NCBI RefSeq assembly: GCF_035825295.1
Contig: NZ_JAYMGI010000002.1
Span: forward strand, 6,501,501 to 6,565,500
DNA from: Actinacidiphila sp. DG2A-62
Lineage (GTDB): Bacteria; Actinomycetota; Actinomycetes; Streptomycetales; Streptomycetaceae
DNA length: 64,000 nt
Reading direction: 5' to 3'
Shown: positions 9,724 through 19,168 of the stretch, in pieces
Layout: each line of letters opens with the position of its first letter
Position numbering within the stretch: position 1 is the stretch's first letter
The notes under the pieces: model-generated
The model's database searches: none
Told to the model about the DNA's origin: nothing
What the model saw: the letters and a program-made list of their open reading frames with translations, nothing else
Translations under genes and position numbers: made by a program

Positions 9724-11514
9724 TCAGGACGCCGGCCGCCCGCCGTGCCACGAGTGCCACAGCGCCGCGTACGCCCGGCCCGCCGCCACCAGCTCGTCGT
9801 GCGGGCCCAGTTCGGTCAGCCGGCCGTCCTCCATCACCGCCACCCGGCCCGCGTCGTGGGCGGTGTGCAGCCGGTGCGCGATCGCGATGACCGTACGCCC
9901 CTTGAGCACCGAGGCCAGCGCCCGCTCGGTGTGCCGGGCGGTCCGCGGGTCCAGCAGCGCGGTGGCCTCGTCGAGGATCAGGGTATGCGGATCGGCCAGC
10001 ACCACCCGGGCCAGCGCGAGCTGCTGCGCCTGCGAACCGTGCGCACGGTGGCCGCCGGCGCCCAGCACCGCGTCCAGCCCGCCGGGCAGCTCGGCCACCC
10101 AGTCCGCGCCGACCGCCGCGAGGGCGGCCAGCAGCCGCGCGTCGTCGGCGTCCGGCGCGGCCATCAGCAGGTTGTCCCGCACGGTGCCGTGGAAGACGTG
10201 GTGCTCCTGGGTGACCAGGACGACCTGGCGGCGCAGCTGCTCGGGACCGAGGTCGGCGACCGGCACCCGGCCGACCGTCACCGTGCCGCTGTCCGGCGCG
10301 TCGATGCCCGCGAGCAGCCGGCTCAGCGTGGTCTTCCCGGCCCCCGACGGGCCGACCACCGCCAGCCACTCGCCCGGCCGCACGGTCAGGTCCACGCCGC
10401 GCAGCACCTCGCCGCCGCCCTCGTAGGAGTAACGCACCCCGGCCACGTCGATCCGGTCGTCGGCCGGCGCGGCCGAGCCGGTCGCGGGCCGCTGGGAGCG
10501 CGGCGCCCGGCCCAGCCCCTCGACCCGGGCGAAGGACGCGCTGCTGCTCTGCAACTGCTCGATCCACATCAGCACCGCGTCCAGCGGCTCCGCGAGCTGC
10601 CGCAGATACAGGGCGGCGGTGACCACCGCGCCGACGCTCATCGCGCCGTGCGCGTGCAGCAGCCCGCCGACCAGCAGCACACCGACGACGGGCACCGCGT
10701 ACGAGACCTCCACGGACGGGAAGAACACCGTGCGCAGGTACAGCGTGTGCAGCCGGGCCCGCTGGGAGGCGTCCAGCGCCTGCCGGCTCGCCGCGGTCCG
10801 CACCTCCCCGAGACCGAACGCCTCGATGGTCCGCGCCGCCGACGCGGTGGTGGACACGGCGTCGGCGACCACGGAGTTGGCGGCGCCCTCGGCGAGGTAG
10901 GCGGTGCGGGCGCGCCGCAGGTACCAGCGCAGCGCGCACCAGATGCCCACCAGGCCGAGCAGGCCGCAGCAGCCCAGCAGCGGGCTCACGGTGAAGACCG
11001 CGCCGAGGATGAAGAGCGCCTGCACGAGCTGGATCAGCACCTCGGGGCCCACGTCGCGCAGGGTGGTGCCGAGCATCGTGACGTCGGAGGTGCCGCGTGC
11101 GGTGAGGTCGCCGGTGCCGGCCCGCTCCACCACCGACGCGGGCAGCGCCAGCGCCCGGTCCACGAACTCCTCGCGGACCCGGGCCAGCGTCCGCTCCCCG
11201 AACCGGTAGCCGAGGCGGCGGGCGTACCGCGCGAGCAGGAACTGCGCCACCGCGAACACCAGGACGACCAGCGCCAGCCGGTCGACGGCGTCCACGCCCG
11301 CGCCGGACCGCACCTCGTCCACGATCCGGCCCACCAGCCACGGCCCGGCCAGCCCGGCCGCGCCGGCGAGGGCGTTGAGCGCGATCAGCGCGGTGAAGGC
11401 GCGGCGGTCCGCGCGGACCAGCCGGGTCGCGGCCCGGCGGACGTCGCCGCTGTCGGCGACGGGCAGGAGGGCGCCGGCCGCGGCCGGCGTCGCAGCGCTG
11501 TGGGCGGTGGTCAT
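9724..11514 (-). CDS. ABC exporter subunit with catalytic Walker motifs but degenerate signature
   Basis: This 596-residue half-transporter has a six-helix membrane domain (residues ~60-340) and a C-terminal nucleotide-binding domain. Walker A is intact (GPSGAGKTT, ~386), as are the Q-loop (VTQEHHVFHGT), Walker B (LILDEAT, ~512) and H-loop (AIAHR, ~545). The ABC signature that is normally LSGGQ reads AHGSQ (~490). Its ATG overlaps the TGA of the upstream gene by four bases (11511-11514), so the two are co-translated and very likely form a heterodimer. The partner lacks the Walker motifs but keeps a perfect signature, so together they could make exactly one ATP-hydrolysing site. The substrate is unknown. 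Confidence 0.88.
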   Translation of the reverse strand: MTTAHSAATPAAAGALLPVADSGDVRRAATRLVRADRRAFTALIALNALAGAAGLAGPWLVGRIVDEVRSGAGVDAVDRLALVVLVFAVAQFLLARYARRLGYRFGERTLARVREEFVDRALALPASVVERAGTGDLTARGTSDVTMLGTTLRDVGPEVLIQLVQALFILGAVFTVSPLLGCCGLLGLVGIWCALRWYLRRARTAYLAEGAANSVVADAVSTTASAARTIEAFGLGEVRTAASRQALDASQRARLHTLYLRTVFFPSVEVSYAVPVVGVLLVGGLLHAHGAMSVGAVVTAALYLRQLAEPLDAVLMWIEQLQSSSASFARVEGLGRAPRSQRPATGSAAPADDRIDVAGVRYSYEGGGEVLRGVDLTVRPGEWLAVVGPSGAGKTTLSRLLAGIDAPDSGTVTVGRVPVADLGPEQLRRQVVLVTQEHHVFHGTVRDNLLMAAPDADDARLLAALAAVGADWVAELPGGLDAVLGAGGHRAHGSQAQQLALARVVLADPHTLILDEATALLDPRTARHTERALASVLKGRTVIAIAHRLHTAHDAGRVAVMEDGRLTELGPHDELVAAGRAYAALWHSWHGGRPAS

Positions 11515-13787
11515 CGCAGGGCCTCCTCGGACCGGCGCGGGCCGCCGTCGCCGTCGCCGTGGTCGCGGTTGCTGTTGTGGCCGTTGTGGCCGTTGTCACC
11601 GCTGTCACGGTTGCCGCGGTCGCGCGGGTCGTCCCCTGCGCCGTCCTCCGGGCCGCGGGACACCAGGCCGCGGTAGCCGGGTTCTGAGGCGAGCAGTTCG
11701 CGGTGTCCGCCGACGGCCGCGACCCGGCCGTCCACCAGGTAGTACACGGTGTCGGCCTGGTCGAGCAGCAGCGGCGAGGTGCCGGTGACGACGGTGGTGC
11801 GGCCTGCCCGCGCCGCCCGCAGCCGCCGCGCCACCGCGGCCTCGGTGTGCGCGTCCAGCGCGGAGGTCGGCTCCACCGCGATCAGCACCTCGGGGTCGGC
11901 GAACAGCGCCCGTGCCAGCCGGACGCGCTGCCGCTGGCCGCCGGAGAGGTTCCGCCCCTGCGCCTCGACAGCCGAGCCGAGCCCGTCCGGCATCGCGCCG
12001 ACCACGTCCTCGGCGACGGCGGCCCGCAGCGCCTCGGCGACGGCGGTGGAGACGACGTCGGCGCCACCGGGCGTCGGCGCGGCGCCGGACGGGGGAGTGC
12101 CGGGTCCGGCGGCGTCGAACCGCGCGGCTTCGGCTGGTGCGGTGCGGGGCCGACCCGGAGCCGGTCGTGCGGCGCCGGCCGGGGCGGCGTTCTGGGCCTC
12201 GCCGCGCTCGCCGTCATCGCTCCTCCCGCCTCCGTGCGGGCCGGCTTGCGCGGGGACGCGGGGCTGGTCCGCCTCCGCGGTGCGGGCCTCGTCCGTCTCC
12301 GTCGTGCGGGCCGTGCCCGTCTCCGTCGTGCGGGCCGTGCCCGTCCCCGCCGTGCGGGGCTGGTCCGCCTCCGCGGTGCGGGCCCCGTCCGCCGCCGTGC
12401 GGGCCGTGCCCGTCCCCGCCGCGCGGGCCTCGTCCGTTCCCGTCGTGCGGGCCCCGTCCGTGTCCGGCACGGGGACGCGGGGTCTGTCCGCGGGGTGGGG
12501 CGCCCAGCGGCCGGCGACCACCTCCCGCAGCGTGCCGGCGAACAGATCCGCCTCGTTGTCCGCGAGCAGGATGCGCTCGCGGACCTGGGCCCGCGCGACC
12601 TCGTCCAGCCGCACCGGCCCCCACGTGACGTCCGACGCGCGGAAGCCGGCCAGCCGGTCGGCCAGCGCCGCCGCGTCCGCGGGGCGCGCGCTGACCACCG
12701 CGGTCAGGCGGCCGGGCGCCGCCTCGACGCCCGACGCGGGATCGCGCAGCGGCGCCGGGCCCGCGGGGGCGTCGGCGGTGGCCGGCCGGGCGGCGGAGTC
12801 GGGTTCGAGGGACAGGAACCGCACCACGCGGCCGGCGGCGACCAGGCCGCGCGTCACGTCGTAGCCGCTCTCGATGAAGAACGCCACCGGTCCGACCAGC
12901 ACCGCGACGTAGCCGTAGACCGCGACGAGCTGGCCGACGCTGATGCCGCCCCGCGCGGCCATCCGCGCCGCGAGCCAGGTGACGACGGCCAGGAACAGCA
13001 TCGGCAGGCCCGTGCCCAGCGCCTGCACCCAGCTCGTGACGCCGCCGACCCGGTAGCCCTGCGCCACCAGCCGGCGCGAGTCGAGGCGGAACGCCCGCGC
13101 GTACAGCTCCTTGCCGCCGAGGCCGTTGAGGACCCGCAGGCCGCCGGCGAGGTCGCCGATGCGCGAGGTGAGCACGCCCTGCTGCTCGCGGTACTCCGAC
13201 TCGGCGCCGCGCAGCCGCCCCAGCAGAGGCCCGACCAGCAGGGCGATCACCGGGACGCCCAGGACGACGACCACACCGAGCGACACCGAGATCGCCAGCA
13301 GCTGCCAGCACACCACGGCGTACGCCACCGCCACGCCGACGCCGGGGCCCGTCATGGTCAGCGACTGGCTGATCTGCTGGACGTCGGTGACGCCGATCGT
13401 GACGACCTCGCCCGCGCCGGTCTGCCGGTGCAGCGCCGCGCCCAGCCGGACCGCCTGGGCGATCAGCGACTTGACGGTGCGGAAGTTGGCGTCCATCCGC
13501 AGCCGGGTCATCACCCGGTGCCGCATGATGCTCACCCACGCGTTGAACGCCTGCAGGCCCAGCAGTGCCGCGCTCCAGGCCACCAGCGCGCCGGTGTCCC
13601 CGGGCACGAGGCCGTCGTCGACCGCGCGCGACAGCACGTACGGCGACAGCGTCACGAGGATCATCCACACCGTGCCCAGCCCCGCGCCCGCCCAGGCGCG
13701 CCCCGGCTGACGGGCCAGCAGCCACCACAGATACCGCCCAGGCCCCCGCCGCTCCGGCGCCCCCGGCTCCGCGTACGCGTCGATCAC
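11511..13787 (-). CDS. ABC exporter subunit with non-catalytic NBD and repeat insertion
   Basis: From GTG 13787 (ribosome-binding site GGAAGGGG) this is a 758-residue half-transporter; longer in-frame starts exist but add Gly/Arg-rich sequence. The membrane domain spans ~25-330. In the nucleotide-binding domain the Walker A position reads RLTAVVSARPADAAA with no GxxxxGK(S/T), Walker B reads LIAVEPTS with the Asp replaced by Val, and the H-loop His is absent (VVTGTSPLL), yet the signature LSGGQRQRVRLARAL (~612) is perfect. About 130 residues of Thr/Ala/Arg/Asp-rich sequence with an octapeptide repeat are inserted between the Q-loop region and the signature. I infer a regulatory subunit that lends its signature to the partner encoded just downstream. 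Confidence 0.85.
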   Translation of the reverse strand: MIDAYAEPGAPERRGPGRYLWWLLARQPGRAWAGAGLGTVWMILVTLSPYVLSRAVDDGLVPGDTGALVAWSAALLGLQAFNAWVSIMRHRVMTRLRMDANFRTVKSLIAQAVRLGAALHRQTGAGEVVTIGVTDVQQISQSLTMTGPGVGVAVAYAVVCWQLLAISVSLGVVVVLGVPVIALLVGPLLGRLRGAESEYREQQGVLTSRIGDLAGGLRVLNGLGGKELYARAFRLDSRRLVAQGYRVGGVTSWVQALGTGLPMLFLAVVTWLAARMAARGGISVGQLVAVYGYVAVLVGPVAFFIESGYDVTRGLVAAGRVVRFLSLEPDSAARPATADAPAGPAPLRDPASGVEAAPGRLTAVVSARPADAAALADRLAGFRASDVTWGPVRLDEVARAQVRERILLADNEADLFAGTLREVVAGRWAPHPADRPRVPVPDTDGARTTGTDEARAAGTGTARTAADGARTAEADQPRTAGTGTARTTETGTARTTETDEARTAEADQPRVPAQAGPHGGGRSDDGERGEAQNAAPAGAARPAPGRPRTAPAEAARFDAAGPGTPPSGAAPTPGGADVVSTAVAEALRAAVAEDVVGAMPDGLGSAVEAQGRNLSGGQRQRVRLARALFADPEVLIAVEPTSALDAHTEAAVARRLRAARAGRTTVVTGTSPLLLDQADTVYYLVDGRVAAVGGHRELLASEPGYRGLVSRGPEDGAGDDPRDRGNRDSGDNGHNGHNSNRDHGDGDGGPRRSEEALR
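12255..12470 (-). repeat. 24-nt tandem repeat coding an octapeptide in the ABC NBD
   Basis: About nine imperfect 24-bp units lie in frame inside the upstream ABC subunit. They encode octapeptides such as TETGTART, TETDEART, AGTGTART and AEADQPRT. Two almost identical units flank the rest at each end of the central block, which suggests slippage or unequal exchange. The repeat sits where ordinary NBDs have a short linker between the Q-loop and the signature helix. Confidence 0.75.
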
Positions 13788-14003
13788 CGCGCCCGCCCCT
13801 TCCGCCGGACGAACCTGCGACAGAGGGGATCGGCGCGCGTCATGGCCGCATCGTCCCAGACGCCCTCGACCCCCGGCCAACCCATTTCCGCAGGCCCGGC
13901 CCCCTGCCCACGGGCGTGCCATTCACCCGAACGGGTGGCGGTGATGTCGTTGCCCGGCACTAGTCTGAGCACTGCGGACAGAATCCCGCCCATGGGAGGA
14001 ATC

Positions 14004-14591
14004 ATGACTGCCCAACCGCTGCCGGACTGGGTGTTCCCGCCCGAGGGCGGTTTCACCGCGGACGACCTGGACCGCATCCCCGATCTCCCGCCGCACACAG
14101 AGCTGATCGACGGGAGCCTCGTCTTCGTGAGTCCGCAGAAGAGTTTCCACACGCTGGCGATGTATCTGCTGGAGAGCGGGCTGCGCTCGCATCTGCCGCC
14201 GACGCTCCGGGTGCGGCGTGAGATGACCGTCGTGGTGGACAAGACCAGCCGGCCGGAGCCCGACCTCGTGGTGATCCAGCGGGACGCCGTGCCCGCAGGA
14301 GGCCACGACGAGACCCGCTACCGGGCCGAGGACGTGGTGCTCGCCGTCGAGGTGGTGTCTCCCCAGTCCGCGGCGCGCGACCGCAAGCGTAAGCCGCTGC
14401 TCTACGCCCAGGCCGAAATCCCGCACTTCTGGCTCGTGGAGCGCACGGACAACGGCCGCCCCGCCGTCCACACCTACGAGCTGGACCGGGTGGGCCTGAA
14501 GTACGAGCTGACCGGCATCCACCACGACCGCCTCAAGCTCTCCGCCCCGTTCACCATCGACATCGACCTCGCCGAGATCGACGACATGTAG
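14004..14591 (+). CDS. Uma2 family (DUF820) putative restriction-endonuclease-fold protein
   Basis: This 195-residue protein has the Uma2 pattern: an early helix and strand (TELIDGSLVF), then SRPEPDLVVI with the PD-type acid, then VLAVEVVSPQSAARDRKRK with the ExK-type residues, and LYAQAEIPHFWLVE. This is the PD-(D/E)XK nuclease fold, found in many paralogues in Streptomyces with no settled function. ATG 14004 has a GGGAGGA ribosome-binding site four bases upstream. It is divergent from the ABC operon and convergent with the pucR-type gene. No cognate partner gene is adjacent. Confidence 0.88.
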   Translation: MTAQPLPDWVFPPEGGFTADDLDRIPDLPPHTELIDGSLVFVSPQKSFHTLAMYLLESGLRSHLPPTLRVRREMTVVVDKTSRPEPDLVVIQRDAVPAGGHDETRYRAEDVVLAVEVVSPQSAARDRKRKPLLYAQAEIPHFWLVERTDNGRPAVHTYELDRVGLKYELTGIHHDRLKLSAPFTIDIDLAEIDDM

Positions 14592-14644: not shown

Positions 14645-16381
14645 TCAGAGCCGCGCGGCCTTCAGGGCCATGTGGAGGAGGAGGCGGGACTCGCCGTCGG
14701 AGAGGTCGAGGCCGGTGAGCTGTTCGATGCGGGACAGGCGGTAGTAGAGGGTCTGGCGGTGCACCGCCAGGGCCGCGGCGGTGCGGGCGGCCTGGCCGGC
14801 GAGGTCGAGGTAGAGCTCGGCGGTGCGGGCGAGTTCGCGGTGGGCCGGGTCGAGCAGGGGCGCCACCGCGGGGTCCGGCGCGGCGTTCTCGGGCAGCGCG
14901 GTGAGCAGCCGGTACGGACCCAGGTCCGCCCAGCGCGCCACCGGCCCGAGCTCCGGCTGCGCCTCGGCCGCGCGGGCCGCGGCCACCGCTTCGCGCCACG
15001 CCTCCGGCAGCGCGCCGATCCCCTCCCGCCCGGCGCTCACCCCGGCGACGGCGGCGGGGCCGGCGCTCGCGCCGGCACGTGTGCGGTAGGGCGCCGCGCT
15101 CGGCTCCCCGGTCGCGCGGCTCGCCCCGGCGTCGCCCGCGGCGGCCGGCGCCAGCGCCTCCAGCAGCCGCGTCGCCGCGGTCCTGGCCGGCGCGAGCAGG
15201 TGCGGGGAGCGCAGGCGTACCAGCAGCGCGACGGGTTCCGCGCGGGGCGGCCGGTGCGCGGGGCCCGCCGGCACCCGGGTGAGCGCCGCCGCCCCCGGCA
15301 CCGCGCGCAGCCCCGGCAGCTCCCCCCACTGCCCCGGCGCCCCGCCGACCGCCTCGGACCAGGCCCGCCCCGCCGTGCCCCCCTGCCCGGCCGCCTCGGG
15401 CCACTGCTCCGCGCTCTGCGCTCCGGCCCGCTGCCCCGGCGCCCCGCCGGTCGCCTCGGGCCACCGCTGCCCGGCCGAGGGACCGGCCGAAGGACCCGCC
15501 GCCTCGGCCCGCCGCCCCGCGTCCTGCGTCTCGGCCGGCCGCCCCGATGCCCTGCCGGTCGCCTCGGGCCACCGCTGCCCAGCCGAGGGACCGGCCGAAG
15601 GACCCGCCGCCTCGGGCCGCTGCCCCGCGTCCTGCGCTTCGGCCCGCTGCCCGGCCGAAGGATTCGCCGCTGGACCCGCCGTCTCGGGCCGGTGCCGCGC
15701 GCCTTGCGCGTCAGGCCGCCGCCGCGGGCCCGCGCCGCCGGACGCCGCGCCCGCGCCTCCCGGCGCCACCCGCGCGGGCGGGCGCGCACCCCCCGCGCCG
15801 CTCCCCGCACCGCCCGGCGCGAGCCGTACGCACACCAGCGCGTGCGGCTCGTCCGCGTCCTCCGCCAGCGCCGCACGCAACGCGTCCTCCGCGCCGTCGC
15901 GGGCCGCTCGGGAGGCCGCGGTGAGCAGGTCGCGCAGGGCCCGCGCCGCGGCCGATCCGGTGCGCGCGGCCGCCGCCAGGCCCGCGCCGATGCGGGCCGC
16001 GACGGCCATCGCCGCGTCGAGCTGCGCCGCCGAGTGCTCGGCCTCGTCCAGCAGCCACACGTACCCGTAGACCACGCCGGCGTGCCGCACCGGCAGGCAC
16101 AGCCGGCCGCGCACCACCCCGGCCGCCGGCGCCGCCGGGATCCGCACCGGCCCGGTCGCCCGCGCGACGCCGAACCGCTCGAACCACGCCCGCACCTCCG
16201 CGGTGGACCTGCGGGTGAGGATCGACCGGGTGCGCACCGGGTCGGTCGCCGCCTCGTCGTCGCTGTCGTGCACGCCGAACGCGATCAGCCGGAAATCCCG
16301 GTCCTCCAGCGTCGCGGGCGCGCCCAGCAGCGCGGACACCTCGTCCACCAGATCCTGGAAGTCCTCGTACACACCGGCCAC
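14645..16381 (-). CDS. PucR family transcriptional regulator, probably of proline catabolism
   Basis: This 578-residue protein starts at GTG 16381. The N-terminal ~190 residues resemble a PucR/CdaR sensory domain ([18 protein letters not shown], a GAF-like pattern), and the C-terminus is the PucR helix-turn-helix ([23 protein letters not shown], then [11 protein letters not shown]). Between them lies about 170 residues of Ala/Gly/Pro/Glu low-complexity sequence with a long direct repeat. The gene is transcribed away from the proline dehydrogenase gene with 156 bp between starts, the usual arrangement of a PucR-type regulator with a proline dehydrogenase-pruA operon. I infer that it activates that operon in response to proline. 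Confidence 0.85.
15450..15640 (-). repeat. 108-bp direct repeat inside the PucR-type gene
   Basis: A block beginning GTCGCCTCGGGCCACCGCTG occurs at 15450 and again at 15558, a period of 108 bp (36 codons), with few differences over about 85 bp. Shorter relatives lie on both sides (about 15350-15440 and 15640-15700). The period is a multiple of three, so copy-number change would keep the frame. It encodes Ala/Gly/Pro-rich linker. Confidence 0.8.
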
Positions 16382-16403
16382 CGCACCATTGTCCCGCACT
16401 CCT

Positions 16404-16419
16404 TCATACAGACGTATGA
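16404..16419. promoter_or_regulatory. Candidate operator between the PucR-type gene and proline dehydrogenase
   Basis: A perfect 6-bp inverted repeat, TCATAC at 16404-16409 and GTATGA at 16414-16419, lies in the divergent intergenic region, 22 bp from the regulator start and 119 bp from the dehydrogenase start. Its AT-richness stands out against the surroundings. It is a plausible binding site for the adjacent regulator. Confidence 0.4.
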
Positions 16420-16537
16420 CCGGCCGCACCCGGACGCGTGACAGGTGTCGATGGCCGCCGGGGGAGGGGAACCCTAGATTCACGGTGACGGCGCGTGTCC
16501 GCCGCAGAATCCGTACCGCCCGCCCTGGAGGAGCCCC

Positions 16538-17467
16538 GTGCTCGGTCCCGTGTTGCTCGCCGCCTCGCACAGCGACCGGCTGCGCCGCGTCGTCGCCGCC
16601 GCACCCGTCACCCGTCCCGTGGTGAACCGTTTCGTCGCGGGCGACGCCCTGCACCCCGCGATGGACACCGTCCGCGCGCTGACCGCCGGCGGTCTCGACG
16701 TCACCCTCGACCACCTCGGCGAGGACGTCACCGACAAGGCCACCGCGCACGCCACCCGCGACGCCTATCTGCGGCTGCTGGAGACGCTGCGCGACGAGAA
16801 GCTCGGCCCGCGCGCCGAGGTCTCGGTCAAGCTCTCCGCCTTCGGCCAGTCGCTCCCCGACGGCGGCCACGACATCGCCCTCGAAGGGGTGCGGCAGGTC
16901 GCCGAGCTGGCCACCGAGATCGGCACCACGGTCACCCTGGACATGGAGGACCACACCACCGTCGACTCCACCCTCGCCGTGCTGCGCGAACTGCGCCTGG
17001 CGCACCCCCGCACCGGCGCGGTGCTCCAGTCCTACCTCTTCCGCACCGAGGACGACGCCCGCGCGCTCGCCGTCGACGGCTCGCGGGTGCGGCTGGTCAA
17101 GGGCGCGTACAAGGAGCCGGCGAGCGTCGCGTACCAGGACAAGCGCGAGGTCGACAAGGCGTACGTGCGCGCGTTGCGCATCCTCTTCCAGGGCGACGGG
17201 TACCCGATGGTCGGCTCCCACGACCCCCGCATGATCGCCATCGCCCAGGAGCTGGCCGCGCGCAACCACCGCGCGCCGGGCAGCTACGAGTTCCAGATGC
17301 TCTACGGCATCCGCACCGCCGAGCAGCGCCGGCTCGCCGACGAGGGCGAGCGGATGCGGATCTACGTGCCCTACGGCGCGGACTGGTACGGCTACTTCAT
17401 GCGCCGGCTCGCCGAACGCCCGGCCAACCTCGCGTTCTTCCTCCGCTCCTTCGTCCCCGGCCGCTGA
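16538..17467 (+). CDS. Proline dehydrogenase
   Basis: This 309-residue FAD enzyme oxidises L-proline to pyrroline-5-carboxylate. It is the short, monofunctional type, with the (beta/alpha)8 landmarks [31 protein letters not shown] and [12 protein letters not shown], and the C-terminal substrate motif [23 protein letters not shown] 16538 is preceded by GGAGGAG. It is followed after 70 bp by pruA, so the product passes to the next enzyme, and it is divergent from a PucR-type regulator. Confidence 0.95.
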
Positions 17468-17537
17468 GCCCGACCGGCCGCCGGGTCCCACCGGCCGCCG
17501 GGCCCGAATCCCCCGAACCCTCAAGGAGACAGCTTCC

Positions 17538-19168
17538 ATGGACGCCGTGACCCAGGTCCCCGCGCCGGTCAACGAGCCGGTGCACACGTACGCGCCGGGC
17601 AGCCCGGAACGCGCCCGGCTGGAGGCCAGGCTCAAGGAGCTGGCGGGCAACCCGGTCGACCTGCCGATGTTCATCGGCGGCCAGGAGCGGATGGGCGGCG
17701 GCGAGCGGTTCGACGTGGTCCAGCCGCACAACCACGGCGCCCGGCTCGGCAGTTACGCCAACGCCACCACCCAGGACGCGCGGGACGCGATCGGCGCCGC
17801 CCTGGCCGCGGCCCCCGCCTGGCGCGCGACCTCCTTCGACGACCGCGCCGCGATCATCCTGCGCGCCGCCGAACTGCTGGCCGGCCCTGGCGCGAGACGC
17901 TGGCCGCCTCCACCATGCTCGGCCAGTCCAAGACCGTGCAGCAGGCCGAGATCGACAGCCCCTGCGAGCTGGTGGACTTCTGGCGGTTCAACGTCCACTA
18001 CGCCCGGCAGATCCTCGCCGAGCAGCCGGTCGCCAACGCCCCCGGCGTGTGGAACCGCCTCGACCACCGCCCGCTGGAGGGCTTCGTCTACGCGATCACG
18101 CCGTTCAACTTCACCGCGATCGCCGGCAACCTGCCCACCGCACCGGCCCTGATGGGCAACGTCGTGGTGTGGAAGCCGTCGCCGACCCAGACGCACTCCG
18201 CGGTGCTGCTGATGCGGCTGCTGAAGGAGGCCGGGCTGCCGGACGGCGTGATCAACCTCGTCACCGGCGATGGGATCGCCGTCTCCGAGGTCGCGCTGGC
18301 CCACCCGGAGCTGGCCGGCATCCACTTCACCGGCTCCACCAAGACCTTCCAGTACCTGTGGCGCACGGTCGGCGAGAACATCGAGCGCTACCGCTCCTAC
18401 CCGCGGATCGTCGGCGAGACCGGCGGCAAGGACTTCGTCGTCGCGCACCCGTCGGCCGACCCCGCGGTGCTCAAGACCGCGCTGACCCGCGGCTCCTTCG
18501 AGTACCAGGGCCAGAAGTGCTCGGCCTCCTCGCGCGCCTACATCCCGCGCTCGATCTGGGACGGCGGCTTCAAGGAGGAGTTCGCCGCAGAGGTCGACGG
18601 CATCACCATGGGCGACGTCACCGACCTGTCCAACTTCCTCGGCGCGGTGATCGACGAGCGCGCCTTCGCCAAGAGCCGGGCGGCGATCGAGCGGGCCAAG
18701 GCCGACCCGACGGTCGAGGTGCTGGCCGGCGGCACCTACGACGACTCGGTCGGCTACTTCGTCCGCCCGACCGTGCTGGTCTCCACCGACCCGGACAACG
18801 AGATCTTCCGCGAGGAGTACTTCGGCCCGATCCTCGGCGTGTACGTCTACGAGGACGCCGACTTCGAGGAGGTGCTCACGCAGATGGAGTCGGTCGCCGC
18901 GTACGCGCTCACCGGCTCGGTGATCGCCACCGACCGGGCCGCCGTCGCGCACGTGATGGAGCGGCTGCGGTTCGCCGCGGGCAACTTCTACATCAACGAC
19001 AAGTCGACCGGCGCGGTGGTCGGGCAGCAGCCCTTCGGCGGCGGCCGGGCGTCGGGCACCAACGACAAGGCGGGCGCGGCGCAGAACCTGATGCGCTGGA
19101 CCTCCACCCGCGCGATCAAGGAGGCGCTGGTGCCGCCGACCGACTACCGCTACCCGCACCAGGGCTGA
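17538..19168 (+). CDS. pruA: 1-pyrroline-5-carboxylate dehydrogenase (frameshifted as read)
   Basis: This NAD-dependent enzyme converts glutamate semialdehyde to glutamate, the second step of proline catabolism. The frame from ATG 17538 breaks at about 17885: the N-terminal part ends in AAELLAGP, and the rest resumes one frame back with [17 protein letters not shown]. One missing C in GGCCCTGG accounts for it, and restoring it gives 543 residues, the normal family length. Catalytic landmarks are intact: the general-base motif GETGGKDF and the nucleophile motif [13 protein letters not shown]. The clean C-terminal 417 residues argue for a consensus error rather than decay. The gene is co-transcribed with proline dehydrogenase. 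Confidence 0.92.

Follow-up and report, generated by a model that had tools for sequence, protein, structure and literature searches.

Degenerate ATP sites are widespread among ABC transporters. A passage of one review counts such a site in 21 of the 29 human ABC proteins that are not homodimers, which is more than half, and the same source describes the degenerate site of the reviewed exporters as binding ATP with similar affinity and possibly holding it for many cycles (PMC7756269). Among the closest described systems, TM287/288, TmrAB, BmrCD and MsRv1273c/72c each consist of two half-transporters with one canonical and one degenerate site. In MsRv1273c/72c the degenerate site carries a Glu to Asp and a His to Gln change, and ATP sits in both sites (PMC12038006). 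The leading idea on degenerate sites is that ATP is held there as a stationary hub, although the function of such a site is called unclear.

Complementary loss has been described outside this group. In yeast Pdr5, NBD1 retains the signature VSGGE, the signature of NBD2 reads LNVEQ, and Asn replaces Glu in the deviant Walker B; according to the section of the paper that deals with this site, it is still occupied by ATP (PMC8421411). Human ABCG5/G8 is cited in part of the review mentioned above for a changed signature accompanied by a Walker A Lys to Arg substitution (PMC7756269). Among pairs assigned to tetracycline export, TetAB(60) is a two-gene ABC transporter requiring both subunits, and the relevant excerpt reports that deletions in the Walker A region of either one (69 and 57 bases; misfolding possible) abolished resistance (PMC5138185). 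TetAB of the Corynebacterium striatum plasmid pTP10 is annotated as a tetracycline efflux ABC transporter, and a figure and table of a review describe it as exporting tetracyclines and beta-lactams (PMC8304765). Here we analyse a pair of actinobacterial exporter subunits, A and B, in which complementary motif losses match those of the pTP10 TetAB and go further than in the other exporters checked.

Results

A pair of half-size exporters with complementary motif losses

The stretch of DNA analysed, referred to as the window, spans 64,000 nucleotides of the genome of Actinacidiphila sp. DG2A-62. The earlier note had placed two ABC exporter genes within it, and both frames proved intact, with A preceding B in transcription order:

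11511..13787, minus strand: subunit A, half-size ABC exporter, 758 aa, GTG start (open frame)
9724..11514, minus strand: subunit B, half-size ABC exporter, 596 aa, ATG start (open frame)

The stop codon of A and the start codon of B overlap in the sequence ATGA (11511-11514), and the GTG at 13787 fits as the start of A because relatives align from the same N-terminus. Pfam PF00664 and PF00005 were found in both proteins, each thus having a TMD fused to an NBD. The entire ABC ATPase profile is matched by B; in A the PF00005 match is restricted to residues 604-642, in the C-terminal part. The motifs of the two NBDs, located in the window by alignment to relatives, are as follows.

12711..12749, minus strand: A, LRDPASGVEAAPG where the first NBD strands and the A-loop would lie (alignment to relatives)
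12651..12695, minus strand: A, former Walker A, VSARPADAAALADRL, without the P-loop Lys (alignment to relatives)
12540..12566, minus strand: A, former Q-loop LADNEADLF, Gln replaced (alignment to relatives)
12081..12467, minus strand: A, low-complexity insert between Q-loop and signature, approximate extent (in-frame 24-base-type repeats at 12267-12461)
11925..11948, minus strand: A, signature LSGGQRQR, intact (SGG in 79 of 79 A rows)
11853..11885, minus strand: A, former Walker B and D-loop LIAVEPTSALD (Asp replaced by Val; Glu and D-loop Asp kept)
11769..11789, minus strand: A, former H-loop VTGTSPL, His lost (alignment to relatives)
10327..10353, minus strand: B, Walker A GPSGAGKTT, intact (Lys in 81 of 81 B rows)
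10198..10215, minus strand: B, Q-loop VTQEHH, intact (alignment to relatives)
10030..10044, minus strand: B, degenerate signature AHGSQ (SGG[QE] in 0 of 81 B rows)
9949..9981, minus strand: B, Walker B and D-loop LILDEATALLD, intact (alignment to relatives)
9865..9882, minus strand: B, H-loop IAHRLH, intact (alignment to relatives)

The earlier note had described A as lacking Walker A, the Walker B Asp and the H-loop His while keeping a perfect LSGGQRQR, and B as keeping Walker A, Walker B, Q-loop and H-loop with AHGSQ for a signature. Both descriptions were read again in the window, and the losses recur across the 79 A rows and 81 B rows of the alignments below. Beyond this, the Q-loop Gln is missing from A, as is the segment bearing the A-loop Tyr together with the surrounding strands, about 15 residues. 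One composite site was expected to be canonical, and the motifs of B with the signature of A would indeed make a complete set. The further statement that the other site lacks every element was too strong: A retains the Walker B Glu and the D-loop Asp. Homodimers, which had been named as a refuting case, were rejected as an explanation, neither an A nor a B homodimer containing a complete site. Judged from these motifs, A is a TMD joined to an NBD without a usable nucleotide pocket.

The interval between the Q-loop motif and the signature is 192 residues in the window's A versus 37-76 in 78 relatives, the difference being the low-complexity insert. An initial alignment put GPHGGGRSD, a stretch within this insert, under Walker A. 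We rejected this hidden Walker A as an artefact because the true P-loop position lies upstream of the insert and the relatives do not have the insert.

Conservation of the motif losses among relatives

A search for B over 84,980 species genomes returned 231 loci, the best 80 of which were used; together with the window these yielded 79 A rows and 81 B rows. A was found directly upstream of B in 78 of the 80 loci, and at the other two (L047 and L069) the contig ends at that point. Two different, co-encoded subunits are thus the rule, as in heterodimeric exporters with a degenerate site. None of the 79 A rows has GxxxxGK[ST] after the TMD, an H-loop His or a Walker B Asp, and a single one has the Q-loop Gln. 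All 79 retain SGG in the signature and have Ser-Pro in the H-loop region, and the Walker B Glu persists in 76 (Asp in two, Gln in one). Conversely, the Walker A Lys, Q-loop Gln, Walker B Asp and Glu, and H-loop His are each present in 81 of 81 B rows, none of which contains an SGG[QE] signature. Because the search patterns for B left the signature out, its loss was not selected for by the search.

To more distant relatives the pattern also extends. An A-profile search of 296 genomes spread over the phylum matched 22 genomes at E ≤1e-65, and a distant set was assembled by taking 20 of its 36 listed places together with their flanks, picked to span clades, and adding two paralogous pairs of the window's own genome. 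All 22 distant A rows lack the Walker A Lys, Q-loop Gln, H-loop His and A-loop Tyr and keep SGG; the A-loop column is a gap in every one. The stretch preceding the P-loop strand has a median length of 30 residues in A versus 45 in B. The distant B rows (21 of 21) keep the remaining motifs and in none is SGG found in the signature column, SGGE occurring elsewhere, after Walker A, in two of them. The Walker B Asp is retained in 6 of the 22 distant A rows, and was therefore lost last or never, the other A losses being universal in this set. The A profile favours sequences that already lack Walker A, such that transitional forms may be missed.

The pattern was seen once more in all 18 of a set of further pairs at the family level, 15 of them from the window's own genus, which partly overlaps the first set (three contigs match those of L062, L070 and L073 in length). 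The earlier note had called for a check of whether the losses occur together in homologous pairs; they do in all pairs examined (79 A and 81 B rows, 22 and 21 distant rows, and 18 of 18 further pairs), and no homologue with intact motifs in both subunits, which the earlier note had named as a sign of sequence error, appeared inside the A and B clades. The motif losses of A are a trait of a conserved family. A sequencing or assembly error, which would make the losses spurious, is refuted by the homologues: the same residues are changed in independent genomes, and the window's A keeps its reading frame through the insert. Chance was likewise excluded by the conservation of the same changes in homologues.

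A B-type frame adjoins A in 30 of 30 loci from the phylum search, a count that includes the window's own and two broken cases. In L135 a deletion has removed most of A and the start of B, so that the remaining front of A runs into B in the wrong reading frame; in the genome of L122/L153 the frames of A and B are both interrupted. Given these broken pairs, the A-B pair is dispensable. Among the genomes of the family (at least 121), 52 matched and 44 were without a match at E 1e-150. As separate observations, A and B at L073 (2560-6336) are read as a single open frame of 1259 residues whose linker is unusual, a possible natural fusion. The B subunits of L137-L146 and of one pair in the window's genome (C2:2360215-2362098) have an altered D-loop as well, with EAG or similar for LLD.

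Inheritance and selection

Related loci share the arrangement of the window, with a 4-base overlap between A and B in 74 of the 77 measured. The pairwise distances among A subunits and among B subunits correlate with r 0.97 over 32 pairs, a value reached in 0 of 2000 permutations. In a quick tree, with 24 weak inner branches and long branches for TetA and TetB, 33 A and 33 B sequences each fall on one side of one branch (support 99 and 100) and 22 other exporters from the window's genome fall outside. The subclades of A and B mirror each other. Because A and B occupy single branches with mirrored subclades and correlated distances, they look like one old pair inherited together.

Within A, positional entropy averages 1.39 bits at the former Walker A and 0.16 at the signature, with a median of 0.83 over the NBD core. 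In B the corresponding values are 0.14 at Walker A, 0.79 at the former signature and 0.23 for the core median, so that conservation follows the division of intact motifs between the subunits. At 0.59 and 0.52 bits, the former Q-loop and H-loop of A are both well conserved, in favour of a new structural function over decay. Median dN/dS values, taken from 28-29 independent species pairs, are 0.18 for the TMD of A, 0.26 from the former Walker A to the Q-loop and 0.19 from the signature to the H-loop; for the matching parts of B they are 0.21, 0.10 and 0.11. The half of A that would be expected to hold ATP is thus the most relaxed, and A as a whole is under purifying selection and maintained.

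If A were instead a decaying pseudo-subunit, B would act alone or with another partner, and the broken pair of L135 might be taken as a sign of such decay. With dN/dS at 0.18-0.26, A is not a pseudogene, its signature is invariant, and it stands beside B in 78 of 80 loci. Moreover, B alone has no signature with which to complete any site, making this explanation very unlikely. Conservation of the Walker B Glu (76 of 79) and of the former Q- and H-loops in A shows that the dead site is not in mere decay; it may have its own ligand or function.

Predicted structure of subunit A

An AlphaFold2 model of the A relative from L001, computed with 25 sequences, had a mean pLDDT of 81.7 and a pTM of 0.59. 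Its best structural match was MsRv1273c/72c (Z 28.1, 546 residues, rmsd 8.8), and its NBD superposed on that of ComA over 223 residues at 2.0 A and on that of HlyB over 222 at 1.8 A. According to the model, A keeps an NBD fold and, overall, the MsbA/TM287-288 (type I exporter) fold. The strand that leads into the P-loop spans residues 360-365 and the next helix 368-378, with just two residues between them, as if two residues and an earlier onset of the helix had taken the place of the phosphate-binding loop. For the window's A the mean pLDDT was 69.2; residues 429-573 fell below 50, and the low-complexity insert is predicted to be disordered. The former P-loop region of this second model showed no clear strand, at a pLDDT of about 66-74.

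These data bear on whether the degenerate site might still bind ATP or another nucleotide through unusual contacts, so that the pair, like Pdr5, would carry two nucleotides and hydrolyse just one. The Pdr5 precedent is in its favour, since in the part of that paper concerned the deviant site holds ATP despite LNVEQ and a changed Walker B Glu (PMC8421411), as are the conserved former Q- and H-loop segments and the retained Walker B Glu of A. However, neither the P-loop Lys, nor GxxxxGK[ST], nor the A-loop residue occurs in any of the 79 or 22 A rows, B supplies no signature to the dead site, and the predicted helix of A begins two residues past the strand, which would leave no phosphate loop. 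We therefore regard two bound nucleotides as unlikely; the second A-B interface probably binds none, as read from its missing residues.

Relationship to TetAB and to other exporters

The pTP10 TetAB pair is one of the closest described systems. Its genes are in the same order, A then B. TetA has LSGGQRQR and lacks Walker A and the H-loop His, as A does, and TetB keeps GTSGAGKST, LTQDVH, LILDEATAEAG and VVAHRLD with PPEVEQ at the signature, as B does with its own motifs. TetA differs from the window's A in being shorter (513 aa) and in keeping the Walker B Asp (LILDDPT). In the tree TetA groups with A and TetB with B (support 99 and 100), a placement to be taken cautiously owing to their long branches, that of TetA, at 1.81, being the less certain. 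The window's proteins fell below the cut-offs of NCBIfam NF000506 and NF000103 (59.5 versus 1025 bits for TetA, 151 versus 999 for TetB), and four more distant B relatives scored 216-228 bits on the TetB model (cut-off 999). The window's pair is not a TetAB equivalog; it is a member of a clade that contains TetAB. Because TetAB has the same losses, the pair is also not the first of its kind, and TetAB shows the motif pattern to be compatible with a working pump.

We searched the open-licence PMC literature for text pointing out the missing motifs of TetAB-type pairs and found none; nor, among the matches listed there, did any title or abstract opening describe an exporter subunit without a P-loop. 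RamAB, StrVW and Rv0194 were considered as well, as possible relatives of the A-B family.

Three such pairs occur in the window's genome, namely the window's own, C2:7866137-7869969 and C2:2357744-2362098. All 23 other NBD rows from this genome, covering the regions of best matches and so part of its ABC genes, keep GxxxxGK[ST]. Among these 23 are ordinary degenerate-site pairs, with Glu to Asp changes, signatures of SAGQ or SAGE, and Walker A kept. The suggestion in the earlier note that the pair is more extreme than usual degenerate sites is borne out by these 23 rows, although with three pairs in one genome and TetAB besides, it is not singular.

Genomic surroundings

A classical degenerate-site exporter pair, X-Y, recurs near A-B: the Y subunit (>55% identity) is encoded upstream of A at 47 of 78 loci and is adjacent in 44. 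Downstream of B, on the same strand, a gene for a thermolysin-like M4 metallopeptidase (Pfam M4, M4_C, FTP and P_proprotein) is present in 53 of 80 loci at a median distance of 401 bases, for example at L040 (6959-9457). In the window's genome the X-Y pair (C2:6409107-6412938) is about 100 kb from A-B, with the M4 homologue beside X-Y, and A-B adjoin serA, a gene that did not turn up in the flanks of either the 80 loci or the 18 further pairs. Two neighbours in the window deserve mention. A Uma2-family gene (putative restriction endonuclease family) is divergent from A (13998-14588, plus strand). It is followed by a long frame (14645-17731, minus strand) that also has a long low-complexity repeat region, and whose C-terminus we take to resemble a PucR-type regulator. 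An anti-phage system was considered and rejected, as the corresponding models gave weak, partial matches and nothing more.

The surroundings also bear on whether the pair might be something other than a drug exporter, be it an importer, a flippase or a regulatory complex. The direction of transport is not readable from sequence, and the best structural matches of the L001 A model include YbtPQ and IrtAB, importers of the same fold. On the other hand, the only member found with a recorded function, TetAB, is annotated as an efflux pump, and siderophore or substrate-binding genes were not recognised among the recurrent neighbours listed. A role other than drug export is accordingly improbable. 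For an exporter, the likeliest guess at a substrate, by analogy with TetAB, is a toxic small molecule.

Discussion

In summary, we consider it likely, from the sequences of the two subunits and their relatives, that A and B pair obligatorily into a heterodimeric ABC exporter that has the MsbA/TM287-288 fold and no more than a single composite ATP site. We infer assembly of the heterodimer from the co-inheritance and motif complementarity of the two subunits. At the single ATP site, B would contribute Walker A, Walker B, the Q-loop, the H-loop and the A-loop, and A the signature. The opposite site would be dismantled from both sides, A having lost the A-loop, the P-loop, the Q-loop Gln, the Mg-binding Asp and the H-loop His, and B the signature. 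Binding and hydrolysis of ATP at the single site would then close and reopen the NBD dimer and thereby drive the TMDs, as a one-stroke engine. The dead interface would serve as a nucleotide-free protein contact or hinge, replacing the "ATP glue" proposed for other degenerate sites. We infer both the direction and the mechanism of transport.

The comparison with described exporters places the pair at one edge of the degenerate-site class. One composite site is canonical and the other is changed in both subunits, as in that class, and Walker A in both subunits, which is usual in the class and not a defining feature, is found in 0 of 79 and 0 of 22 A rows. TM287/288, TmrAB, BmrCD and MsRv1273c/72c share the fold, but in the literature cited their sites keep Walker A and bind ATP, whereas the A family lacks both the P-loop and the A-loop. 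Pdr5 and ABCG5/G8 show complementary loss, as A-B do, and are hence partial precedents; in the excerpts cited they differ in being eukaryotic, in having the ABCG fold, and in carrying point substitutions rather than loss of the A-loop and P-loop. As described in the relevant part of its report, TetAB(60) is similar to A-B as a two-gene exporter needing both subunits, and it needs the Walker A region in each, whereas A of the present family naturally lacks Walker A.

Because the degenerate sites in the cited literature still hold ATP, the A-B family makes the idea of a stationary ATP hub testable. A lineage whose site cannot be expected to bind ATP, and which is nevertheless under selection, would show that the second ATP is dispensable for export. 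We lean, by a modest degree, towards the view that A and B represent ancient actinobacterial ABC exporters that work with a single bound ATP per cycle, the second site having become a permanent nucleotide-free contact, such that neither "ATP glue" nor a second ATP would be needed for alternating access. If true, the family would offer a natural one-site machine in which coupling could be measured without interference from a second nucleotide, and TetAB would be its member with an assigned substrate.
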